From the NCBI GenBank assembly GCA_015228935.1, contig JADGCO010000039.1, positions 1 to 37,165 on the forward strand: DNA of 37,165 nucleotides. The letters are read 5' to 3'. The stretch's first letter is position 1; each line of letters starts with the position of its first letter. The position numbers and the translations under genes are program-made. The DNA is from Magnetococcales bacterium (GTDB lineage Bacteria; Pseudomonadota; Magnetococcia; Magnetococcales; DC0425bin3). Of the stretch, positions 9,072 to 36,751 are shown piece by piece. Below the pieces are notes generated by a model. That model made no database searches and was not told the DNA's origin. It saw only the letters and a list, made by a program, of their open reading frames with translations.

Positions 9072-12000
9072 AAATGATCCCGACATGGAATGGATTGTTC
9101 GGATCGACCAGGAGGGTATTCAACTGACCGCCAGGAGCGGTGCAGGGGGGGCATGTGTTGCATGTGTTGCATGTGTTGTTGCCGAGGGTAAGGGGAGTGG
9201 AACTCGGCAACACCTGTTCCAGAGTGAGGGGCTGGGGAGCCGTGCCGGTACCAGTCACGGGATTGATGACAGCGGCGAGTTTCGGGTCAGAAGGCGTGGC
9301 GCTCGGCAACACCTGTTCCAGGCTGAGGGGAGGGGGAGCCGTGCCGGTACCGGCCATGGGATTGATGACCGCAGCGTGTTTCAGGTCAGGACCGGTATTC
9401 AGGGTCGGAGGGTGGCCGGTTCCCTGGCCTGGCAGGGTATTGGCAACAGGAGCGCCAGCCATGAGGAGAGGGTCGGTTGGCTCATGAAAGAGAATATTGT
9501 CGCCCTGGCTGCCGGGGAGGGGAGGATTGTTTGCATCTCCCCCATACAGGAAAGAGACTTCCGCCAGATGGCCGGTTTTTCCATCACTGAATGTCAAATG
9601 ACCATCGGTCAAAATCTGGTTGGTTCCCTGCCATTGTCCGTTGCCGGTCGTCTGGAGGGAGAGAGAGACGATGCCTTTGTCGGCCAGTGAATGAAGTTCC
9701 CCGGTACCGGAGATGCCATCCTGGTTTTGATCCTGCCAGACCAGAAGGTCTGCGAACAGGGTATCCAGGGCATCGAGAATCTGGTCATGGTTGCTGTCGA
9801 GGAGTGCCAGGGCCTCCATGCCGGAATGGGCATCCGCGAACATGCGCTCCGAAAAAATTTCCGTGGCATCGTTGATGAGGCCATCGTGGTTGCGATCCAG
9901 GGCCAACAGGGCATCATCGGCACCCACCCAACCGGTCTGTTGGGGTTGTCCGGTCAGGCCCATGTCAAATTTCACGCCCTGTCCCCAATCCACCAACTGG
10001 ATGCCATCGCCCTTCAGGTCGAGAACGACGGGATCCAGATAGGTGGCCATGTCGGTATCGACCAGCAGGGAGACGGAACCCTGGACATAACGATGGTAAT
10101 TCTGGCCGCCAATGGTGGTGTAATTGGCCGTATAACTCCAGCCGGTTCCGATATGAAGCGTATCGCTGCCGTCGCCCATGATTTGCAGATCGGTGCCGCT
10201 GGCGGTCAAGTGGATGATATCCTGGGCCGTGAACCGCAAGACATGCGCTCCCGTGCCTGCTTGCAGGTCGATGACCTCGATGGAGGCCAGACGATAATCC
10301 GGCAGGGTGGTCAAATCGACATCGAGGGTATTGACCAGCAGGGTGTCGGTACCCGCACCCCCATCGATCAGGTCGAAGGTCGTATTGTCCAGAATAAACA
10401 GATCATCGCCATTTTCGCCAAACAACAGATCTGTGCCATTGGCGGTCAGGGTATCGTTGCCGTCGCCGCCCAGCAGGACCTCTTGTCCGGAGGTGCCAGT
10501 CAGGGTGTTGGCGCTGGCATCCCCCTGCTGGGTGACGGCCAAAGCCGTCAGTGTCAAACCGGTGCTTGTGAAAGAGGGATCCAACACCAATCCACTGCCG
10601 ATGTTGAGACCACTGATCCGGTCCACGGAACCGCTGGCTGCCGTATGACTCATGACCTGGAACGAGTTGCCGGCAACAGGCACGAACCCATTGATCAGGT
10701 TGATCTGGAGCGTGCCATTCAAGCCGACGGTGCCGGATATGGCGAGTTTGTCATACTGGGTGCCGACTGTGGTGCCGCCCAGGTCCAGGTTCAGGAAGGC
10801 CGTGTTGCCAAAAGCCAACGTGGAGCCGGTGTGGTTGATGGTCAGCAAGCCTGCTGTGCCGGCGGTTCCGGGTTGGATGGTCCCGTTCAGCTCGGAACCG
10901 CCGGTATTGGCCACGGTGAGTGTACCCGCGCCTTGCAGGATGCCCGCTGCCTGCAAGGTGAAGTCATTACCGGTACCTGATATACCCAGGGTGCGGGTAT
11001 TGGCGATATCGATGGTGCCGGCACTGGTGAGCATGCCGTTGATGGTCAAATCATCCACTGTCACACTGATCATGCCGCTGTTGTCGAGAGTACCGGTGAT
11101 GGTTTTGCTGCCATCGGCATCGCCACCCAGGGTGATGAGACCGGTATTGGTCAAGGTGTAGCCGCTGCCCATGGTCAGGGTGGCGTTCCAGGGGGCGTAG
11201 TCGGTGGTGAGGGTCAGGGTGCCGGCATTGTCCAGGTTGCCATTGAACGTCTGGCTGGAGGCGCTGCCCGCCGCCGATGTGCCATCGATGAACAAACTGG
11301 CTCCGACGGCATTGCTGAACGCCACGTTGAACGTGTCATCTGTACTGCGCAGGTAGAGAATGCCCTGATTGACGAAAGTGCCGGTGCCGGTCACGGTGAC
11401 GATACCGCCGAATTTCAAGGTGGCCGTACTGGTCAGGTGCGTATATCCCGTGCCGATGTTGAGCGAGGGGGTTCCCGTCAGATCAATCGTTCCGGTCCCG
11501 GCCAGGGTCGTACCGCTGCCAAAATAAATGGTGCCGTGACTCACGGCCAGGGTCATGCCGGCACTGACGCTGAGCGTGCCACCCTGGGTGTTGAATTGGG
11601 CATTGGTGTTGGTGATGTTCAGATCATCCACCGTCACCTGGATGGTTCCGGTGTTGGTGATGGAGCCGACGATGGTTTTGATGCCATCGGCATCGCCACT
11701 CAGGGTAATGACACCGGTGTTGGCCAGGGTATAGCCGCTGCCCATGGTCAGGGTGGCGTTCCAGGGGGCATAGTCGCTGGTGAGGGTCAGGATGCCGGCA
11801 TTGTCCAGGTTGCCATTGAACGTCTGACTGGAGGCGCTGCCCGCCGCCGATGAGCCATCGATGAACAGACTCGCGGCAGCGGCATTGCTGAACGCAACGT
11901 TGAAAATGTCATCCGTACTGCGCAGATAGAGGACGCCCTGATTGGTAAAGGTACCGGTGCCGGTCACGGTGACGATACCACCGAATTTCAAGGTGGCCGT

Positions 12001-15000
12001 ATTGGTTTGGTGCGTATATCCCGTGCCGATGTTGAGAGTGTGGGTTCCGGTCAGATCGACCGTTCCGGTCCCGGTCATGGCTGTGCCACTGCCAAAACGG
12101 GTGGTTCCGTTACCCACGGACAAGGCCACGCCGGTATTGACATTAATGGTGCCATTTTGCGTGTCGAACTGGACACCGTTGTTGTTGATGTTCAAATCAT
12201 CGACCGTTACCTGGATGGTACCGGTATTGGTGACCGCGCCGACAATGGTCTTGATGCCATCGGCATCGCCACCCAGAGTGATAAGGCCGGTGTTGGCCAG
12301 GGTGTAGCCGCTGCCCATGGTCAGGGTGGCGTTCCAGGGGGCGTAGTCGCTGGTGAGGGTCAGGATGCCGGCATTGTTCAGGTTGCCATTGAATGTCTGG
12401 CTGGAAGAGCTGCCCGCCGCCAAGGTGCCATCGATAAACAGACTCGCGGCAGCGGCATTGCTGAACGCAACGTTGAAAATGTCATCCGTACTGCGCAGAT
12501 AGAGGACGCCCTGATTGGCAAAGGTGCCGGTGCCGGTCACGGTGACGATACCACCGAATTTCAAGGTGGCCGTATTGGTTTGGTGCGTATATCCCGTGCC
12601 GATGTTGAGCGAGGGGGTTCCCGTCAGATCAATCGTTCCGGTCCCGGCCAGAGTCGTACCGCTGCCAAAATAAATGGTGCCGTGACTCACGGACAGGGTC
12701 AGACCGGTACCGACGTTGAGCGTGCCGTTTTGTGTGTCGAATTGGACGTTGGTGTTGGTGATGTTTAAATCATCAGCTGTCACCAGGATGGTGCCGGCGT
12801 TGGTCACTGCTCCGACAATGGTTTTGATGCCATCGGTATCGCCACCCAGGGTGATGAGGCCGGTGTTGGTCAGGGTGTAGCCGCTGCCCATGGTCAGGGT
12901 GGCGTTCCAGGGGGCATAGTCGGTGGTGAGGGTCAGGGTGCCGGCATTGTCCAGGTTGCCATTGAACGTCTGGCTGGAGGTGCTGCCCGCCGCCGAGGTG
13001 CCATCGATGAACAGACTGGCGGCAGCGGCATTGCTGAACGCAACGTTGAAAACATCATCTGTACTGCGCAGGTAGAGGATGCCCTGATTGACGAAAGTGC
13101 CGGTCCCGGTCACGGTCACGCTGCCACCAAATTTCAAGGTGACCGTACTGGTCAGGTGCGTGTATCCCGTACCAATATTGAGAGAGGGGGTTCCCGTCAG
13201 ATCGATCGTTCCGCTCCCGGCCAGGGTCGTACCGCTGCCAAAATAAATGGTTCCGTGACCCACGGACAGGGTCAGACCGGCATCGATGTTGAGCGTGCCG
13301 TTTTGTGTGTCGAATTGGACGTTGGTGTTGGTGATGGTCAGATCATCCGTGGTGACATGGATCTGGCCGGTATTGGTGAGAGCGCCGACGATTGTGTTGG
13401 TGCCATTCGTATTGCCTGCCAGGGTGATGAGGCCGGTGTTGGTCAGGGTCTTGCCCGTGGCCATGGTCAGGGTGGCTCCCCAGGGGGCATAGTCCGTCGC
13501 CAGGATCAGGGTGCCGGCATTGTTCAGGTTGGCATTGAAGGTTTGTGAGGCGAGGGCACCGGCAGCCGTTCTGCCATCCAGGGTTGCGGAGGCCCCGGAC
13601 TGGATGGTCAGGGTTGGATTGACCACGCCGGTGCCTTTCAGGGAGAGCGCATTTTGTGCCACCAGGGTTCCGCTGCCCGCCAGGGTGACGTTCTGGAGCG
13701 TGTCGGCGACGTTGTATTCCAGAACACCGTTGACAGTGAGGTTGTTGAAGGTGGTGCTGGCGCTGAGGGTCAGGGTGGTGCCGGTGGCCAGGGTCGAGGC
13801 GGTGGCAAAGGTGACCGTATCGCCGGCGTTGCCGTTGATGCGGATGGTGGTGCCGCTCATGATCTGATTCAGGGTGGCCGAGGTGAGGGTGAGGCTGTTG
13901 TTGCCGCTGCCGGTGAGGTCGATGATTTCAATATTGGCAATCTTGCCGGCCATGCCGGCAGTGGCGAGATTCAGGGTGAAACCGGCACCATCCAGACGCA
14001 GGGTATCCTGACCGGTTCCCCCATCGATTTTCAGGAACGTGGCATCGGTTATGGCCAGGATGTCGTTGCCGGCCCCGCCGATCAAAACATCCGCCCCGCC
14101 GGTCCCGGTCAGGGTGTCGTTGCCCAGCCCGCCGTGCAGGGTATTGGCACCAGCGGTTCCGTTGAGGGTTTGGGGTGTTGCGGGGGCTTCCGTGAAATTG
14201 CCACCGAAAAACACATGGGCGGTACCGGCATCCGTGCCATTTGCATCGGCCCAGGGGGCACCGGCAACGATATCATCGAATCCGTCACCATTGACATCCC
14301 CGGCCCCGCTGACCGACCAGCCGCTCCAGTGACCAGGTGCCGCACCATCCAGACGAAGGCCGGCATGGCCATCCAGGGCGGAGAGGTCGATCTGGGCAGC
14401 AAAACCGCTGGATTTGCCGTACACCACATAGATGGCCCCGGAGTCGGTGCCGTTCGTATCGGCCACGGGGGCACCGATGACGAGATCGGCATAGCCATCC
14501 CCATTGAAATCACCGGCACTGCCGACTGACCAGCCGCTTTTGTCGCCTGGTGCGGCACCATTCAGGCGGAAACCGTTCGTGCCGTTCAGGGAGGTCAGGG
14601 AAATCTGGGAGGTCCAGCCGGAAGCCTGCCCGAACACGACGTAGCTGGTACCGGAAAGGTTGCCGCCGGAATCGGCGGCATACGCGCCGATAAGCAGGTC
14701 GGCAAACCCGTCGCCATTGACATCGCCGGCACCACTGACCGACAGGCCACTGTAATCGTTCGCTGTTCCTCCATCGATGCAAAAGCCATTGGTGCCATTC
14801 AGGCTGGAAAGATCCAGGGTCGCGGTGAAACCGGCTGACTTGCCAAAAATGACATGGCTGGCCCCGGAATTGCTGCCGCCGGAGTCAGCCCCGCTAGCCC
14901 CCACGATGAGGTCGGCAAACCCGTCGCCATTGACATCACCGGCGCTGCTGACTGACTCACCGCTCTCGTCGGCAGCCGCCACGCCATCCAGACGAAAACC

Positions 15001-18000
15001 GTTCGTGCCATCCAGGGTCGAAAGATTGAGTGAGGCGGCAAAGCCCGAGGATTTGCCGAAAATGACATAACTGGCCCCGGTGTCGCTGCCATCCGGGGTG
15101 GCATGAATGGCACCCACGATGAGGTCGGCAAAGCCATCCCCATTGACATCCCCGGCGGCACTCACGCTGCCACCGCTCAGATTGTTGGTGCCTACGCCAT
15201 CCAGGCGAAAACCGTTGCTGCCATCCAGGGCCGAGAGATCGAGCTGGGCGGCAAACCCGGATGCCTTGCCGAAGATCACATAAGCAGCGCCGGAACCATC
15301 TCCGCCAGGGTCTGCACCGACGGCACCGATCACCAGATCATCGAAGCCATCCCCGTTGACATCTCCGGCCCCGTTGACAGCACTGCCGCTCCAGTCGTTG
15401 GCCGCCACACCGTTCACACGAAAACCCTGACTGCCATTCAGGGCCGAGAGATCAATCGATGCGGCAAACCCGGTTGATTGGCCAAATATCACGTAGCTGG
15501 CTCCGGTATCGCTCGCTCCAGCATCGGCCTTGCGGGCACCGACGATGATGTCGTGGCAGCCATCGCCATTGAGGTCGCCGACATGACCGACGGCCACGCC
15601 ACTTTCGTCGCCTGCCGCCACGCTGTTCAATTGGAAACCCTGGGTGCCGGTCAGGGAGGCAAGCGGCACGACCGAGAGGGGGGTGATGGTCACGGAGGGG
15701 GTCAGCAGGCTTTCGGCTGTGCCGTGGCCGTCGGTATAGGCGACCTGGACCCGAATCCGGGTATTGAGGTCCGTTTGCAGCGGCGTATAGGTGCTGCCGG
15801 TTGCCCCGCCGATGCTGCTCCAGGTGGTACCGCCGTCCGTGGAGCGTTGCCACAGGTATGCCAGGGTTCCCAATCCATCGGCATCGACCAGGGCGGTTGT
15901 GTTCACGGTCAGGGCCTGGCCGACTGCCGTGCCGGTTATGGCGATGGAGCCGGTGGGGGCATCGTTGACATTGCCGACGGCACCCGTGCTGCTGCTGGTG
16001 ACGCTTTCCGATGTGCCATGACCATCCGTATAACTCGCTGTCACGGTGATTATTTTGCCCACTTCGGCTTCGGCCAGCACCAGGGTGTTGCCGGTCGCCC
16101 CGGATATGTTGGTGCCATCGGCCAACCATTGCCAGGCGATGGTGCCCAGACCATCCGTATCGGTCAGGGTATTGGCTGCGGTCAGGGTGTTGCCCTGGGT
16201 CGCCGTGCCACTGATGGTCACGCCGCCGGTTGGGGCATCGTTGGTATTGCCGACAACACTCGTGCTGCTGCTGGTGACGCTTTCCGACGTGCCATGACCA
16301 TCCGTATAACTCGCTGTCACGGTGACCGTTTTGCCCACTTCGGCTTCGGTCAACACCAGTGTATTGCCGGTCGCACCGGCAATGTTGGTGCCATCGGCCT
16401 GCCATTGCCAGGCGATGGTGCCCAGACCATCCACGTCGGCGAGGGTGTTGGCTGCGGTCAGGGTGTTGCCCTGGGTCGCCGTACCACTGATGGTGACGGT
16501 ACCGGTGGGGGCATCGTTGGCATTGCCGACGGCGCTCGTGCTGCCGCTGGTGACGCTTTCCGCCGTGCCATGACCATCCGTATAACTTGCCGTCACGGTG
16601 ATCATGGTGCCCACTTCGGTTTCGGATGGTACCAATGTGTTGCCTGTTGCACCGGCAATGGGGGTGCCATCGGCGAGCCATTGCCAGGCGATGGTGCCCA
16701 GACCGTCCGCATCGGCCAGGGTATCGGTTGCGGTCAGGGTGTTGCCCTGGGTTGCTGTGCCGCTGATGGTGACGGTACCGGTGGGGGCGCTGTTGGTGGC
16801 TGCCACGGTGCTGGTGGCACTGCTCGTGACGCTTTCCGGCGTACCGTGACCATCCGTATAACTGGCCACCGCCGTGATGACTTTGCCGACCTCGCCTGCT
16901 GTCAGTGTCAGGGTATCGCCCGTGGCACCGGAGATGTTCGTCCCATCGGCCTGCCACTGGTAGCTGATGGTTCCCAGACCGTCCCTGTCGGCCAGGGTGT
17001 TGCTGGCCGTCAGGGTGCCTCCCTGAAGTATCGTGCCACTGATGGTCACGTTGCCGCTGGGCGCATTGTTGGTATTGACCGTGGCGCTTGTGGCGCTGCT
17101 CTCGACACTTTCGTTCGTGCCGTGACCATCGGTATAGCTTGCCACCACCGTGATCGTCTTGCCCACTTCCGTTTCGGAGAGAACAAGCGTGCTGTTCGTT
17201 GCTCCGGCAATATCCACGTCATCCGCCTGCCATTGATAGCTGACGGTTCCCAGACCATCCTCATCGGTCAGGGTATGGCTGGCGGTCAGGGTTTCTCCTT
17301 CCGTGACCGTACCATTGATGGTGACTGTTCCGCCGGGAGCATCGTTGGCGTTGGTGACAGCACTGCTGGCGCTGCTCTCCACACTTTCGCTCGTGCCGTG
17401 ACCATCGGTATAGCCTGCCACCACCGTGATCACTTTGCCCACTTCCGCTTCGGTGAGGACCAGCGTATTGCTTGTCGCCCCAGCGATATCCACACCATCC
17501 GCCTGCCACTGATAGCGGACGGTTCCCAGATCGTCTGCGTCGGTCAGGGTATGGCTGGCGGTCAGGGTTTCTCCTTCCGTGAATGTACCATCAATGATCA
17601 CGGCACCGCCGGGCGCATCGTTGGCGTTGGCAATGGTGCTTGTGGCGTTGCTGAGAACACTTTCGGCGGTGCCCAGGCCGTCGGTATAGCTGGCTGTTAC
17701 CGTAATGATTTTGCCTGTCTCGGCTTCGGTCAGCACCAGCGAGTCGTGTGTGGCACCGGCAATTTTTTCGCCATTCGCCAGCCATTGGTAGAGAATCGTG
17801 CCCAGACCATTCGCGTCGGCCAGGGTATGGGTCACGGTCAGGGTCTCTCCCTGGGTGGGGGTCCCTTGGATGGTCACGCTGCCGGTGGGGGCGGCGGCGG
17901 GATTGGTCACCTGGAGGGTGAAATCCTCGATATGGGGCAGAATGGCATGGGTCGGATCCGTCACCATGACGCGCACATGCAAAACAGGCTGGTTCGCATG

Positions 18001-31536: not shown

Positions 31537-33408
31537 ATGCTGGAAGACGATCACGAACTGTTCAGGGTGGATGCCCGACGCCGTCTTCTCCTCATTGGTG
31601 GCCTGGGGGGGGTATTGTTTTCGGTTTTGGGGATTCGGCTCTTTCATTTGCAGTTGCTCAAAGGGGGGGAGTATCGCGACCTGGCGGAAAACAATCGCAT
31701 CAGCCTGCAACCGGTTCCAGCCCCACGTGGCCACATTTTTGATCGTAACGGCTCGATTTTGGTGGAAAACCGGCCTGACTATCGGCTGGCGGTCATCCCG
31801 GAACTTTCGGGCGGCCTGCCGAAAACCCTGGAAAGATTGCGTGCCTACATCGAAATCACCGACAAGGACATCGAGGGAATCCTCAAACAGGCCCGCAAGC
31901 AGCGCTCTTTTCTGCCGGTCAAAATCCGTTCCCACCTGACCTGGCGGGAGGTCAGCCGCATCGAGGTGCGCAGCCACCTGTTTCCGGGTGCCATCATTCA
32001 AATACAGTCCCGGCGGCACTATCCCTTTGGCAGCCTGGGGGCGCATGTGCTTGGCTATCTGGGCGAGATCACCGAAACAGATAAACGGGATTTCACCGAT
32101 ACCACATTTTTGGGTATGGAAGATGCCCATCTGGTCAAACGGGATCTCAATGACGTTCGTTTCCGTTCCGGGGATCTGGTGGGCAAGACCGGGGTGGAGC
32201 GCCGTTTTGAAACCGTTCTCCGTGGTCAGGAGGGGGTACGCAAGATGGAAGTCAATGCCCTGGGACGCCAGGTGCGGGAACTGGGACATTCGTCCCCCAT
32301 GCCGGGGGATGATCTTTATCTGACTCTGGACATTGATTTGCAGAGAGACACGGAAGCGGCCCTGGGTGAAAAACTGGGTGCCGTGGTGGTCATGGATCCC
32401 CGTACCGGTGAAATATTGGCCATGGTCAGTCGGCCGGCCTACGATCCGAACGCCTTCATCCGGGGTTTCGGTCCGGGACAGTGGCGCTCCCTGATCACCA
32501 ATCCGGGTCGCCCGTTGACCAACAAGGCCATTCAGGGCCAGTATCCTCCGGGTTCCACCTTCAAGATGGTCGTTGCCCTGGCCGGTCTGGCCGAAGGCAA
32601 GATCGGAGCCAATGACCGGGTGGTCTGCAATGGTCACATCGAACGGGAAAAAGTGCGCTTTCATTGCTGGAAAAAGAGTGGTCACGGTTCCGTGGATCTG
32701 GTCCAGGCCATCGCCCAATCCTGCGATGTCTATTTTTATCGCCTGGCGGACAAGATCGGCATCGATGCCCTGGAGCGTTATGCCCGAAAATTCGGCTTCG
32801 GTGAACTTTCCGGTATTCGTCTGGTGGGTGAACGTCCGGGATTGATGCCATCACGGGAGTGGAAACGGGCCAGGCAGCGTGCCCCGTGGTATCCGGGAGA
32901 GACCCTGATCACGGCCATCGGTCAGGGTTATGTCATGGCGACGCCCGTGCAGTTGGCCAGCATGGTGGCCACCATTGCCAATGGCGGCATCCTGTATCAG
33001 CCGGCCATGGTGCGTCCGGGCAACAAGTCAACCGCCGTGGTGCGGCGACGGATTCGCATCGATCCCCAGCATCTGGCCCTGGTCAAACATGGCATGGAAG
33101 AGGTTCTCAATGGTTCGCGTGGCACGGCCCGCCAGGCCGCACCCAAGGGCGTGCGTGCTGCCGGCAAAACCGGAACTTCCCAGGTCGTGCGCCAAAAGCG
33201 GGAAGAGAGCGGCAAGGCCATTCCCTCGAGTGATCCACGGTTCCAGGATCACGCCCTTTTTGTCTGTTATGCCCCGGTGGAGTCTCCCGAACTGGCCATT
33301 GCCGTGATCATTGAACATGGTGGTCATGGCAGCTCAGCCGCAGCACCGGTGGCACGGGATATTCTTGAGCGCCATTTTGCCCGGAAAAATGCCGGTCTGG
33401 AGACTTGA
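31537..33408 (+). CDS. mrdA: penicillin-binding protein 2 (elongation transpeptidase)
   Basis: A 623-residue class B PBP. It has a short cytoplasmic tail, a membrane anchor (about 17-40), a pedestal/dimerisation domain with APRGHIFDRNGSILVENRPDY (broken here as APRGHIFDRNG and LVENRPDYRLA), and the transpeptidase domain. The active site is complete: Ser340 in PPGSTFKM (SxxK with Lys343), SCD at 395-397 (SxN-type position), and KTGTS at 544-548. It cross-links side-wall peptidoglycan in partnership with the RodA glycosyltransferase. It starts directly on the mreD stop codon with GGAGAG upstream, so it is co-transcribed and coupled. The SxN motif has Asp rather than Asn, which is also typical of many PBP2 proteins. 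Confidence 0.96.
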   Translation: MLEDDHELFRVDARRRLLLIGGLGGVLFSVLGIRLFHLQLLKGGEYRDLAENNRISLQPVPAPRGHIFDRNGSILVENRPDYRLAVIPELSGGLPKTLERLRAYIEITDKDIEGILKQARKQRSFLPVKIRSHLTWREVSRIEVRSHLFPGAIIQIQSRRHYPFGSLGAHVLGYLGEITETDKRDFTDTTFLGMEDAHLVKRDLNDVRFRSGDLVGKTGVERRFETVLRGQEGVRKMEVNALGRQVRELGHSSPMPGDDLYLTLDIDLQRDTEAALGEKLGAVVVMDPRTGEILAMVSRPAYDPNAFIRGFGPGQWRSLITNPGRPLTNKAIQGQYPPGSTFKMVVALAGLAEGKIGANDRVVCNGHIEREKVRFHCWKKSGHGSVDLVQAIAQSCDVYFYRLADKIGIDALERYARKFGFGELSGIRLVGERPGLMPSREWKRARQRAPWYPGETLITAIGQGYVMATPVQLASMVATIANGGILYQPAMVRPGNKSTAVVRRRIRIDPQHLALVKHGMEEVLNGSRGTARQAAPKGVRAAGKTGTSQVVRQKREESGKAIPSSDPRFQDHALFVCYAPVESPELAIAVIIEHGGHGSSAAAPVARDILERHFARKNAGLET

Positions 33409-33413
33409 GATTC

Positions 33414-34565
33414 ATGGCCCGCGCCGATGACAATAAAAATTTTCTCTCTTCCGAAGATGCCGTCGCCTTGCGTCTGCGCGAACGTCTGGCCCGCTTTCCC
33501 TGGGGATTGCTGCTGTTATTGACTCTGGCGGCCTGTATTGGTTTGACAGTGCTTTTTTCCGCCGTGGGTCGGCGCAATATTGGCATGCTGTTCAGTCAAA
33601 CCGTGCGTTTCGGCTTTTCCCTGGTGCTGATGGTGATTCTGGCCCTGGCCAATGAAAAGGTCTACCGTCGTTATGCCTACCTGATTTATGGCCTGATCCT
33701 TTTAATGTTGGTGGCGGTGGCCATCATGGGGGATGTCGGCATGGGGGCACGAAGGTGGTTGGAGATCGGTTTTGTGCGTCTGCAACCTTCGGAACTCATG
33801 AAAGCAGCCATTGTTCTGGCCCTGGCGCGCTATTTTCACGACCAGTCCGCCTCCCCTTTGCGGCTGCGGGATGTCCTGATTCCCTTGTGTCTCATCCTGG
33901 CTCCTCTGGCTTTGATCGTTCATCAACCCGACCTGGGGACGGCGGTCATTGTGGCGGTCATCAGCGGTGCGGTCATCTTTGTGGCAGGTCTTTCCTGGCA
34001 TGCCATCCTGGCCACCGTCATCATTGTGCCGGCGTCGTTTCCCCTGCTTTGGAATTTTCTCCATGACTACCAGAAACGCCGCATTTTTACCCTGTTTTTC
34101 CCGGAAGACGATCCCCTGGGGGCCGGATATCACATCATCCAATCCAAGATTGCCGTGGGTTCCGGAGGTTTGACCGGCAAGGGGTTCATGGGTGGCAGTC
34201 AGAGTCATCTGGACTTTCTTCCCGAGCGGCACACCGATTTTATTTTTTCGGTTTTGGCGGAAGAGTGGGGGTTCCTGGGGGCTGTCATTCTGATCGTCAT
34301 CTATGGCCTGATCACCTTGCGGGGAATCACCATCGCGGTCATGGCTCGGGACCGGTTCGGCCTGCTCCTGGCCTCGGGATTGCTTTCCCTTTTTCTGTTT
34401 CAGGTCATCATCAATATTGGCATGGTCATTGGCTTGTTGCCTGTGGTGGGCATTCCGCTGCCGCTGGTCAGTTATGGAGGCAGCTCCATGATCACCGTCA
34501 TGCTGGCCATGGGTCTTTTGGCACATGTAAGCATTCACTCCAAACAACACGGTCGCGCTGTTTAG
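33414..34565 (+). CDS. rodA: peptidoglycan glycosyltransferase RodA (SEDS family)
   Basis: A polytopic SEDS protein of about 383 residues with ten predicted membrane segments. Family landmarks are the MGARRWLEIGFVRLQPSELMK region (near 100-120, given here as GARRWLEIGFVRLQPSE), HQPDLGTAVIV, GSGGLTGKGFMGGSQSHLDF, ERHTDFIFSVLAEEWGFLG and the C-terminal PLPLVSYGGSSM. It polymerises lipid II glycan strands with PBP2. The frame also opens at TTG 33405, overlapping the mrdA stop as TTGA with GGAG three bases upstream; ATG 33414 is preferred but the TTG is possible, as in mreD. Its last codons and stop lie inside a duplicated stretch shared with the start of lpxD. Confidence 0.94.
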   Translation: MARADDNKNFLSSEDAVALRLRERLARFPWGLLLLLTLAACIGLTVLFSAVGRRNIGMLFSQTVRFGFSLVLMVILALANEKVYRRYAYLIYGLILLMLVAVAIMGDVGMGARRWLEIGFVRLQPSELMKAAIVLALARYFHDQSASPLRLRDVLIPLCLILAPLALIVHQPDLGTAVIVAVISGAVIFVAGLSWHAILATVIIVPASFPLLWNFLHDYQKRRIFTLFFPEDDPLGAGYHIIQSKIAVGSGGLTGKGFMGGSQSHLDFLPERHTDFIFSVLAEEWGFLGAVILIVIYGLITLRGITIAVMARDRFGLLLASGLLSLFLFQVIINIGMVIGLLPVVGIPLPLVSYGGSSMITVMLAMGLLAHVSIHSKQHGRAV

Positions 34566-34678
34566 GGAGTTTCCGTGATGAAATTGTCTGACATTGTCCG
34601 CCTGCCTGCCAACCGACACGGTCGCGCCGTTTCAGGGAGTTCCCGTGATGAAATTGTCTGACATTGCCCGTCTGCTTG
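34547..34678. repeat. degenerate tandem duplication spanning rodA end and lpxD start
   Basis: Copies at 34547-34608 and 34616-34678 differ by five transitions and one single-base indel. Each contains the sequence of the rodA C-terminus (HGRAV), an AGGGAG ribosome binding site, an ATG and the first ~10 codons of lpxD. The indel removes the rodA stop codon in the second copy. The second copy is the real lpxD start; the first opens a 27-codon ORF. Confidence 0.9.
34578..34661 (+). CDS. putative 27-residue leader ORF overlapping the lpxD start
   Basis: The upstream copy of the lpxD start has its own AGGGAG and ATG and begins MKLSDIVRLPANRHGRAVSG, the first eight residues nearly matching LpxD (MKLSDIAR). 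It then runs through the remainder of the duplication and stops at TGA 34659-34661, 12 bases inside lpxD. The overlap would couple or interfere with lpxD initiation. The product resembles no known peptide; it may be a by-product of the duplication. Confidence 0.4.
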   Translation: MKLSDIVRLPANRHGRAVSGSSRDEIV

Positions 34679-35592
34679 ATTTGCAACACTTCGGACCGGA
34701 TGTGACCATCACCGGTGTTGCGCCCATTGAGTCCGCCGGACCCGGCGATCTGACCTATGTTGCCAAAAAAAATTATCTGGCTCAAACCTCGGCGGCAACA
34801 GCCCTTCTGTTGCCGCCGGATCTGGCCGAGGCCACTGACAAGCCAAGGATGGTGACGCCGCATCCGGCCATGGATCTGGGCCGGGCCGGTCGCCTGTTTG
34901 CCCTTCCGGAACTGACCGTGACGGGAGTTCACCCGAGCGCCGTCATCGATCCGTCGGCAACGTTGGGGGAGGGGGTCAGCGTGGGTCCGCGGGCCGTCAT
35001 TGGTTCCCAGGTTGCCATTGGTCCGCAAAGCGTCATCCATGCCGGGGTGGTCATCCATGAACGGTGTGTCATCGGTGCCCGCTGTGTCATTCACAGCAAC
35101 GCTGTGGTGGGATCCAATGGCTTCGGCTTCGAGTATATTGCCGGTCGCTATGAACGGATCCCCCATTTTGGCACTGTCCTGATCGAAGATGATGTGGAAA
35201 TCGGTGCCTCCACCACCATCGATCGTGCCCGGTTTGGCGTCACCCGGATCGGCTCCGGTACCCGCATCGACAATCTGGTCCAGATTGCCCATAATGTTCA
35301 GATCGGCCACAATGTCATGATCATTTCCCAGGTGGGAATTGCCGGTTCCTGTCAGATAGGCGATGGGGCGGTGCTGGCCGGGCAGGCCGGACTCGTGCCT
35401 CATGTCACCATTGGTGCAGGTGCCCGGGTCGGGGCAAGTACCGGTGTGGCCACGGATGTTCCCCCCGGGGTGGCATGGTCCGGCTGGTGGGGCAAGGAAC
35501 ATCGACGCAACATGGTGGAAGTCAACTGCATGCGTCAGTTGCCCGAGTTTATGAAACTGGTCAGAAGCTTCATGAAAAAATCGGAGGGTTGA
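34648..35592 (+). CDS. lpxD: UDP-3-O-(3-hydroxyacyl)glucosamine N-acyltransferase LpxD
   Basis: A 314-residue lipid A enzyme that adds the second acyl chain to UDP-3-O-acylglucosamine. The N-terminal uridine-binding domain contains ITGVAPIESAGPGDLTYVAK. It is followed by the left-handed beta-helix of hexapeptide repeats (VIDPSATLGEGVSVGPRAVI and onwards). The catalytic His is expected in LVQIAHNVQIGHNVMI, and the segment SNGFGFEY is the usual substrate-site motif. A short C-terminal helix ends in MKKSEG. ATG 34648 has GGGAG nine bases upstream. The frame stays open to 34594, but the extra residues are not LpxD-like. lpxA and fabZ, often adjacent, are absent. The gene carries a tandem copy of its own start upstream and is followed 4 bases later by arsM. 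Confidence 0.95.
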   Translation: MKLSDIARLLDLQHFGPDVTITGVAPIESAGPGDLTYVAKKNYLAQTSAATALLLPPDLAEATDKPRMVTPHPAMDLGRAGRLFALPELTVTGVHPSAVIDPSATLGEGVSVGPRAVIGSQVAIGPQSVIHAGVVIHERCVIGARCVIHSNAVVGSNGFGFEYIAGRYERIPHFGTVLIEDDVEIGASTTIDRARFGVTRIGSGTRIDNLVQIAHNVQIGHNVMIISQVGIAGSCQIGDGAVLAGQAGLVPHVTIGAGARVGASTGVATDVPPGVAWSGWWGKEHRRNMVEVNCMRQLPEFMKLVRSFMKKSEG

Positions 35593-35596
35593 ACCC

Positions 35597-36751
35597 ATGA
35601 CCATGGAGCCTCACGTTCGTCAGCGGTATTCCCAGGGGGCACAGGAGGTCGTCCCGGCCTTGTGCTGTCCGGTAGAGTATGACGCCAATCTTTTGGCACT
35701 TCTGCCCCGGGAAATCATTGAGCGGGACTATGGCTGTGGGGATCCATCCCGGTATGTGCAATCCGGCGACACGGTCCTGGATCTGGGTTCCGGCACCGGC
35801 AAGATTTGTTATCTGGCGGCCCAGCTTGTGGGTCCGACGGGGCGGGTTATTGGCATTGACATGAATGACGACATGCTCGCCCTGGCACGCAAGTACCAGC
35901 CGGAAATGGCCCGTAAGCTGGGAGGGGATCGGGTCTCTTTCCACAAGGGCCGCATCCAGGATCTGGCCCTGGATCTGGAGGCCTTGGGTGTCTGGTTGGC
36001 AGCACATCCAGTCACCGATCTGACTTCCCTGGACGCCTTTGAACAAAAGCAGCATGAAATGCGTCGTGACTCTCCCATGATACCGGATGCCTCGGTGGAC
36101 CTCGTCGTCTCAAACTGCGTCCTCAATCTGGTGGATGATGCCCAAAAAACCAGCTTGATCCAGGAAATCTACCGGGTTCTCAAACCGGGTGGGCGGGCTG
36201 CCATTTCCGACATTGTGGCCGATGCTCCGGTTCCGCAATCCCTGAAGCAGATTCCAGAGCTTTGGAGCGGTTGCATTTCCGGAGCTTTCGAAGAGTATGA
36301 GTTTGTCAAAACTTTCCGGGATGCGGGTTTCACCGGCATGGCTTTTGACAAGTGGGACGGCAAACCCTGGCAGATTGTGGGCGGCATCGAATTTCGTTCC
36401 GTGACCTTGACGGCTGTCAAACAACCCGTTGCCCGGCAACAAACCGAGGGTGGCCATGCCGTTCTCTATCGGGGTCCCTTTGCCAGCATCGAGGATGATC
36501 TGGGCAACCGTTTTCCGGTCGGGGAGCGGATGGCTGTTTCGCGCGAGGTATACGAGCGCCTGGGTACCCCCCCTTTTGAGAAACATTTTGTGCGTTTTGC
36601 CCCATTGCGGGCGCAGCTTCCCACGCCCTATCTTGTACCGCCCGGTACCCTCCGCCCGGCAGCGGTCACCCGAGGCAACCCGGCCCGGGTCGAAGAGATC
36701 GAGGTGGCGTCGGCCTGTGGGCCGACAGGCAAGGGAGGTCGGTGCTGTTGA
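35597..36751 (+). CDS. arsM: arsenite methyltransferase, ArsM-like
   Basis: A 384-residue SAM-dependent methyltransferase. The SAM motif is VLDLGSGTGKICYLAAQLVG (59-78) followed by VIGIDMNDDML. The three arsenic-binding cysteines of ArsM are visible: Cys47 in RDYGCGDP, Cys174 in VSNCVLNLV and Cys226 in ELWSGCISGAFEEYEF. It should methylate arsenite, converting it to less toxic or volatile species. Extra features are Cys23-Cys24 near the start and a C-terminal CGPTGKGGRCC, so further thiols could bind As(III); the length and vicinal Cys pairs fit the long ArsM type linked to arsenosugar synthesis. It begins 4 bases after lpxD, with GGAGG ten bases before the ATG, so it appears to sit in the envelope operon. 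No arsR, arsB or arsS is seen. Confidence 0.85.
   Translation: MTMEPHVRQRYSQGAQEVVPALCCPVEYDANLLALLPREIIERDYGCGDPSRYVQSGDTVLDLGSGTGKICYLAAQLVGPTGRVIGIDMNDDMLALARKYQPEMARKLGGDRVSFHKGRIQDLALDLEALGVWLAAHPVTDLTSLDAFEQKQHEMRRDSPMIPDASVDLVVSNCVLNLVDDAQKTSLIQEIYRVLKPGGRAAISDIVADAPVPQSLKQIPELWSGCISGAFEEYEFVKTFRDAGFTGMAFDKWDGKPWQIVGGIEFRSVTLTAVKQPVARQQTEGGHAVLYRGPFASIEDDLGNRFPVGERMAVSREVYERLGTPPFEKHFVRFAPLRAQLPTPYLVPPGTLRPAAVTRGNPARVEEIEVASACGPTGKGGRCC

Follow-up and report, generated by a model that had tools for sequence, protein, structure and literature searches.

A short tandem duplication across the rodA-lpxD junction of a Magnetococcales genome and the leader open reading frame that it opens

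In a 37,165 nt stretch of a Magnetococcales bacterium genome (GenBank assembly GCA_015228935.1, contig JADGCO010000039.1; this whole stretch is called the window here), the end of rodA and the start of lpxD are present twice in immediate succession, and the first copy of the lpxD start opens a short reading frame that ends inside lpxD itself. A first-pass annotation, made from the sequence of the window alone, proposed that competition or coupling between the two starts could tune lpxD. Is the leader such a device, or is it the by-product of an ordinary duplication? The features on which the answer depends are collected in Table 1.

Table 1. Features of the duplicated rodA-lpxD junction (positions are those of the window).
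Feature	Position	Strand	Details
rodA	33405..34565	+	386 codons from TTG; true stop TAG 34563-34565; TIGR02210 rodA_shape 432 bits (cut-off 336.7)
rodA-lpxD copy A (69 nt)	34540..34608	+	working rodA end and spare lpxD start; 62-nt core 34547-34608
Leader Shine-Dalgarno TAGGGAG	34563..34569	+	overlaps the rodA stop; duplex with the 16S tail -8.4 kcal/mol
Leader ORF	34578..34661	+	ATG 34578, TGA 34659-34661; 27 sense codons; opened by the copy A start; 14-nt overlap with lpxD
rodA-lpxD copy B (70 nt)	34609..34678	+	relic rodA end and working lpxD ribosome binding site and start; 63-nt core 34616-34678
Inserted C	34633..34633	+	turned the duplicated rodA stop TTTAG into TTTCAG; position by alignment; missing from G002 and G001
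lpxD Shine-Dalgarno CAGGGAG	34633..34639	+	-7.7 kcal/mol
lpxD	34648..35592	+	314 aa, ATG 34648; TIGR01853 lipid_A_lpxD 263.9 bits (cut-off 242.5); start agrees with relatives' N-termini

The two-copy repeat of 62/63 nt that the first-pass annotation placed over the rodA end and the lpxD start is present at exactly those coordinates, and TRF gives the copy pair a score of 221 (period 70, 89% matches), far above chance. The core copies differ by five substitutions, all of them T/C transitions, and by one inserted C in copy B. The repeat can be extended leftward by 7 more nt from 34540 (CCAAaCa / CCAAcCg, 5/7 identical), and this extension adds two substitutions, one of which is an A/C transversion; the annotation's remark that the substitutions are all transitions thus holds for the core but not for the full unit, whose alignment has 62 matches in 70 columns with 7 substitutions and 1 indel. 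From this alignment 34540 is the most likely start of the repeat, and since the two units (69 and 70 nt) then follow each other directly, the duplicated segment most probably measured 69 nt, equal to 23 codons. The copy occurs in a single place in the genome, and we rejected a dispersed repeat as its explanation.

The leader translates as MKLSDIVRLPANRHGRAVSGSSRDEIV. Its codons 1-10 repeat the LpxD start, and its codons 12-18 encode NRHGRAV, a duplicate of the RodA C-terminus (SKQHGRAV) that is read in the RodA frame. The 27-codon upstream frame had been described correctly, including its stop (a TGA that begins at base 12 of lpxD), and so had its own ribosome binding site, as a usable Shine-Dalgarno sequence precedes each of the two starts. 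The frame continues into lpxD because of the C inserted in the duplicated rodA stop; without that base it reaches GTT TAG after 18 codons, 12 nt before lpxD, so that, counted from the lpxD ATG, the insertion moved the end of the leader from +12 to -14. Although the leader peptide opens with the LpxD N-terminus MKLSDI, the chance that lpxD truly begins in copy A, or that both starts yield forms of LpxD through frameshifting, is negligible: the copy A start is out of the lpxD frame (the period is 70) and runs into the TGA, and in relatives LpxD begins where the copy B ATG lies. We also rejected an extended LpxD initiated at TTG 34594; its Shine-Dalgarno energy is only -2.4 kcal/mol, and the relatives again start at the copy B position. 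On the other side of lpxD, 4 nt past its end, an ORF at window positions 35597-36751 is methyltransferase-like and has a CC at its C-terminus that, by eye only, recalls arsenite methyltransferases.

The differences between the copies were polarised with the closest relative, G002 of the same genus, as outgroup. The working rodA half of copy A shows one silent substitution (GCC to GCT) and the spacer one further change, and the spare lpxD half has acquired A7V and L10P; most relatives have Ala at LpxD position 7, and no relative has Val there. The spare rodA half of copy B carries two replacements, K to N and Q to R, as well as the insertion that destroyed the stop, and its working lpxD half a single synonymous change (CGC to CGT). 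The five disruptive changes therefore all fall in redundant halves, and the two changes in functional halves are both silent (Fisher's exact test by hand, ~0.05, on small counts). Such a pattern is what one expects of a true duplication with purifying selection confined to the working halves, and it gives no hint that the leader peptide has been selected as an LpxD-like segment. Between the copies, 7 of 69 aligned bases differ (10%), and the source genome (G000) differs from G002 by 20.5% in rodA and 24.4% in lpxD; since the divergence of the copies is lower than the 20-24% divergence of the genes, the duplication is probably younger than the split of these two genomes.

The same pattern bears on whether the repeat exists in the chromosome at all. 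The window belongs to a draft assembly of 197 contigs, and a metagenome assembler could have joined the overlapping ends of two strains uncollapsed and so produced a false tandem copy. We consider this very unlikely, since the damage in each copy falls in its redundant half (copy B has no rodA stop, and copy A has the two LpxD replacements), which two healthy strains would not have supplied, and since similar diverged duplications are found at other junctions of the source genome (below). The decay pattern thus argues for a duplication that is real in the chromosome.

We took LpxD loci from 44 relatives, in 43 of which the start could be read; the source genome is the one available representative of its own species, and a scan of genome contigs gave only distant LpxD relatives, which were left out of further analysis. 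None of the 43 readable loci has a second copy of the start region upstream of lpxD: when the 51-nt start region is matched without gaps to the 600 nt upstream, the best score is at most 26/51 in the relatives and 44/51 in the window. The junction is single-copy in G002, in G001 (also of the same genus) and in G003, and that of G002 reads CAGCACGGTCGCGCCGTGTAGGGAGTTCCCGTGATGAAATTG, one copy with 12 nt from the rodA stop to the lpxD start. Within the order, rodA and lpxD are separated by anything from 9 to >500 nt, and rodA was not found upstream of lpxD in some genomes of the order. From this variable spacing, and because no relative has a second start, we conclude that on the available sequences the junction is labile and that there is no conserved leader. 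The comparison of junctions in relatives that the first-pass annotation had called for thus went against its regulatory reading, the duplicated start and leader being absent in 43/43. Our search of the literature found no relevant account of a duplicated start region like this one. In G001, a sister species, the rodA-lpxD spacer (L004) contains a 145-nt element (1339-1483) that ends in perfect 16-nt inverted repeats, GAGGCTGTTTGAAAAC, and has a target duplication of TTA. Four further copies of it, full or partial, lie in 381 kb of G001 and none in our samples of the source genome or G002; the element resembles a small transposable element of the non-autonomous kind.

Could the leader nonetheless be a functional cis-regulator, whose translation tunes lpxD through coupling or through occlusion of the lpxD start? 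The two Shine-Dalgarno sequences are of comparable strength (-8.4 and -7.7 kcal/mol), the leader and lpxD overlap by 14 nt, and PMC12548453 discusses short upstream ORFs by which a gene is supplied with ribosomes. We nevertheless regard such a function as unlikely. The leader is found in one genome only (0/43 relatives), the relatives manage with a single-copy junction, and nonsynonymous decay has hit conserved LpxD positions in its LpxD-like part. The junction RNA has no excess of structure over shuffled sequence (fold z = +1.22), and no Rfam family matches it. That the leader frame is open is not evidence of use, because an open frame of 26 codons is expected about 1 time in 3 at the local composition. 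A search within the duplication for a promoter or terminator gave one promoter-like match, on the minus strand, and no terminator-like site. The overlap itself speaks against efficient coupling, which according to one review occurs at spacings of -4 to +3 nt, falls progressively for overlaps >4 nt with strong loss as the overlap reaches -25 nt, and is weaker on the other side out to about +40 nt for termination-reinitiation (PMC12548453); in an experimental study, coupling was nearly gone at an intergenic distance of ~20 nt (PMC10666635). Both the present spacing of -14 nt and the one that probably preceded the C insertion, +12 nt, lie outside the range of -4 to +3 nt. By this comparison a leader at -14 nt should couple poorly to lpxD, and ribosomes that cross the lpxD start would, if anything, lower independent initiation there.

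The claim can be narrowed to the insertion, in that the single base that turned an 18-codon leader ending at +12 nt into a 27-codon leader ending at -14 nt might have been favoured by selection for lowering LpxD synthesis or for linking it to the translation of RodA. This too is improbable in our estimation; if true, it would be a regulator born of a tandem duplication and seen very early. With the leader missing from relatives, A7V and L10P in its LpxD part, RNA of no unusual structure, an overlap of 14 nt and duplications of this kind common in the genome (below), the proposal that competing or coupled starts tune lpxD finds no support.

In 0.84 Mb sampled from the source genome we found 29 two-copy tandem duplications of 40-160 nt, or 35 per Mb, from which the whole genome would have perhaps ~160 comparable duplications. 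Of these, 17/29 lie at gene edges or in spacers, although ~92% of the sample was called coding, and among the 12 inside genes the period is divisible by three in 9. The corresponding values per Mb in samples of relatives are 20 in G002, 5 in G001, 2.5 in G013 and 0 in both G018 and G059; as genes were called by a crude longest-ORF scheme and the sampled contigs differ in size, these ratios are rough. Imperfect two-copy duplications are seen in the window at 655-799, 9203-9389 and 34540-34678, and in the source-genome samples L057-L096. Two more duplicated junctions were compared with the genus. At one of them both relatives have a shorter unaligned spacer, and at the other G001 does but G002 does not; these spacer lengths would fit a gain in the source lineage. 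The source genome appears to be unusually rich in junction duplications. Most of the near-perfect arrays show little homology at their ends. Two possible causes of the excess were rejected: no Ku, as needed for Ku end joining, was found in the 48 genomes searched, and the 5' exonuclease domain of PolA is present without internal stops. The window also contains tandem arrays at 15949-17892 (276-nt unit, 7 copies) and 14837-15283 (213-nt unit, 2.1 copies), of the type seen in large repeat-containing surface proteins.

With its abutting copies, its 69-nt unit, single-copy relatives and redundant halves that drift, the rodA-lpxD repeat resembles the short tandem duplications that arise in bacterial genomes through errors of replication or repair; it is unlike typical ones in that it spans a gene junction, so that a start and a ribosome binding site were duplicated, and in that its genome appears unusually rich in such duplications. 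Like overlapping pairs that are translationally coupled by termination-reinitiation, it has a co-directional upstream ORF that ends near the start of the next gene, but the overlap is 14 nt instead of the 1, 4 or 8 nt of those pairs, which is beyond the spacing for efficient coupling (PMC12548453, PMC10666635), and the leader ORF is not conserved. It shares with bacterial regulatory leader peptides and upstream ORFs a short ORF with its own Shine-Dalgarno sequence ahead of a biosynthetic gene, but unlike them it has no conserved peptide, no attenuator or alternative hairpins (none was found) and no relatives that carry the leader.

We therefore favour, with a probability of roughly 0.85, one tandem duplication event, confined to this lineage, that copied ~69 bp across the rodA-lpxD junction and after which the redundant halves decayed neutrally. 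Copy A provides the working rodA end, copy B provides the working lpxD ribosome binding site and start, and the leader is the spare lpxD start running into the spare rodA end. Alignment and parsimony suggest that at first 12 nt separated the rodA stop from the leader start and another 12 nt separated the leader's stop, 18 codons on, from the lpxD start, the same gap as between rodA and lpxD in G002, and that the one-base insertion later lengthened the leader into lpxD. Because its Shine-Dalgarno sequence is retained, the leader is probably translated to some level; the ribosomes on it would pass the lpxD initiation site and stop 14 nt within the gene. Retention of the leader ATG and Shine-Dalgarno sequence, with one change in the spacer, is compatible with youth and with use alike. 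A modest effect on LpxD output is possible, and any such effect would be at most modest and unselected.

We conclude that the duplication is most probably a genuine but ordinary genomic accident, and that the regulatory reading, beyond its plausibility, is without support. The locus is a clear small case in which duplication of a gene junction makes a spare gene start and the halves decay by redundancy. The duplication alone alters nothing known about the control of lipid A; the wider lead is the apparent wealth of junction duplications in the source genome.
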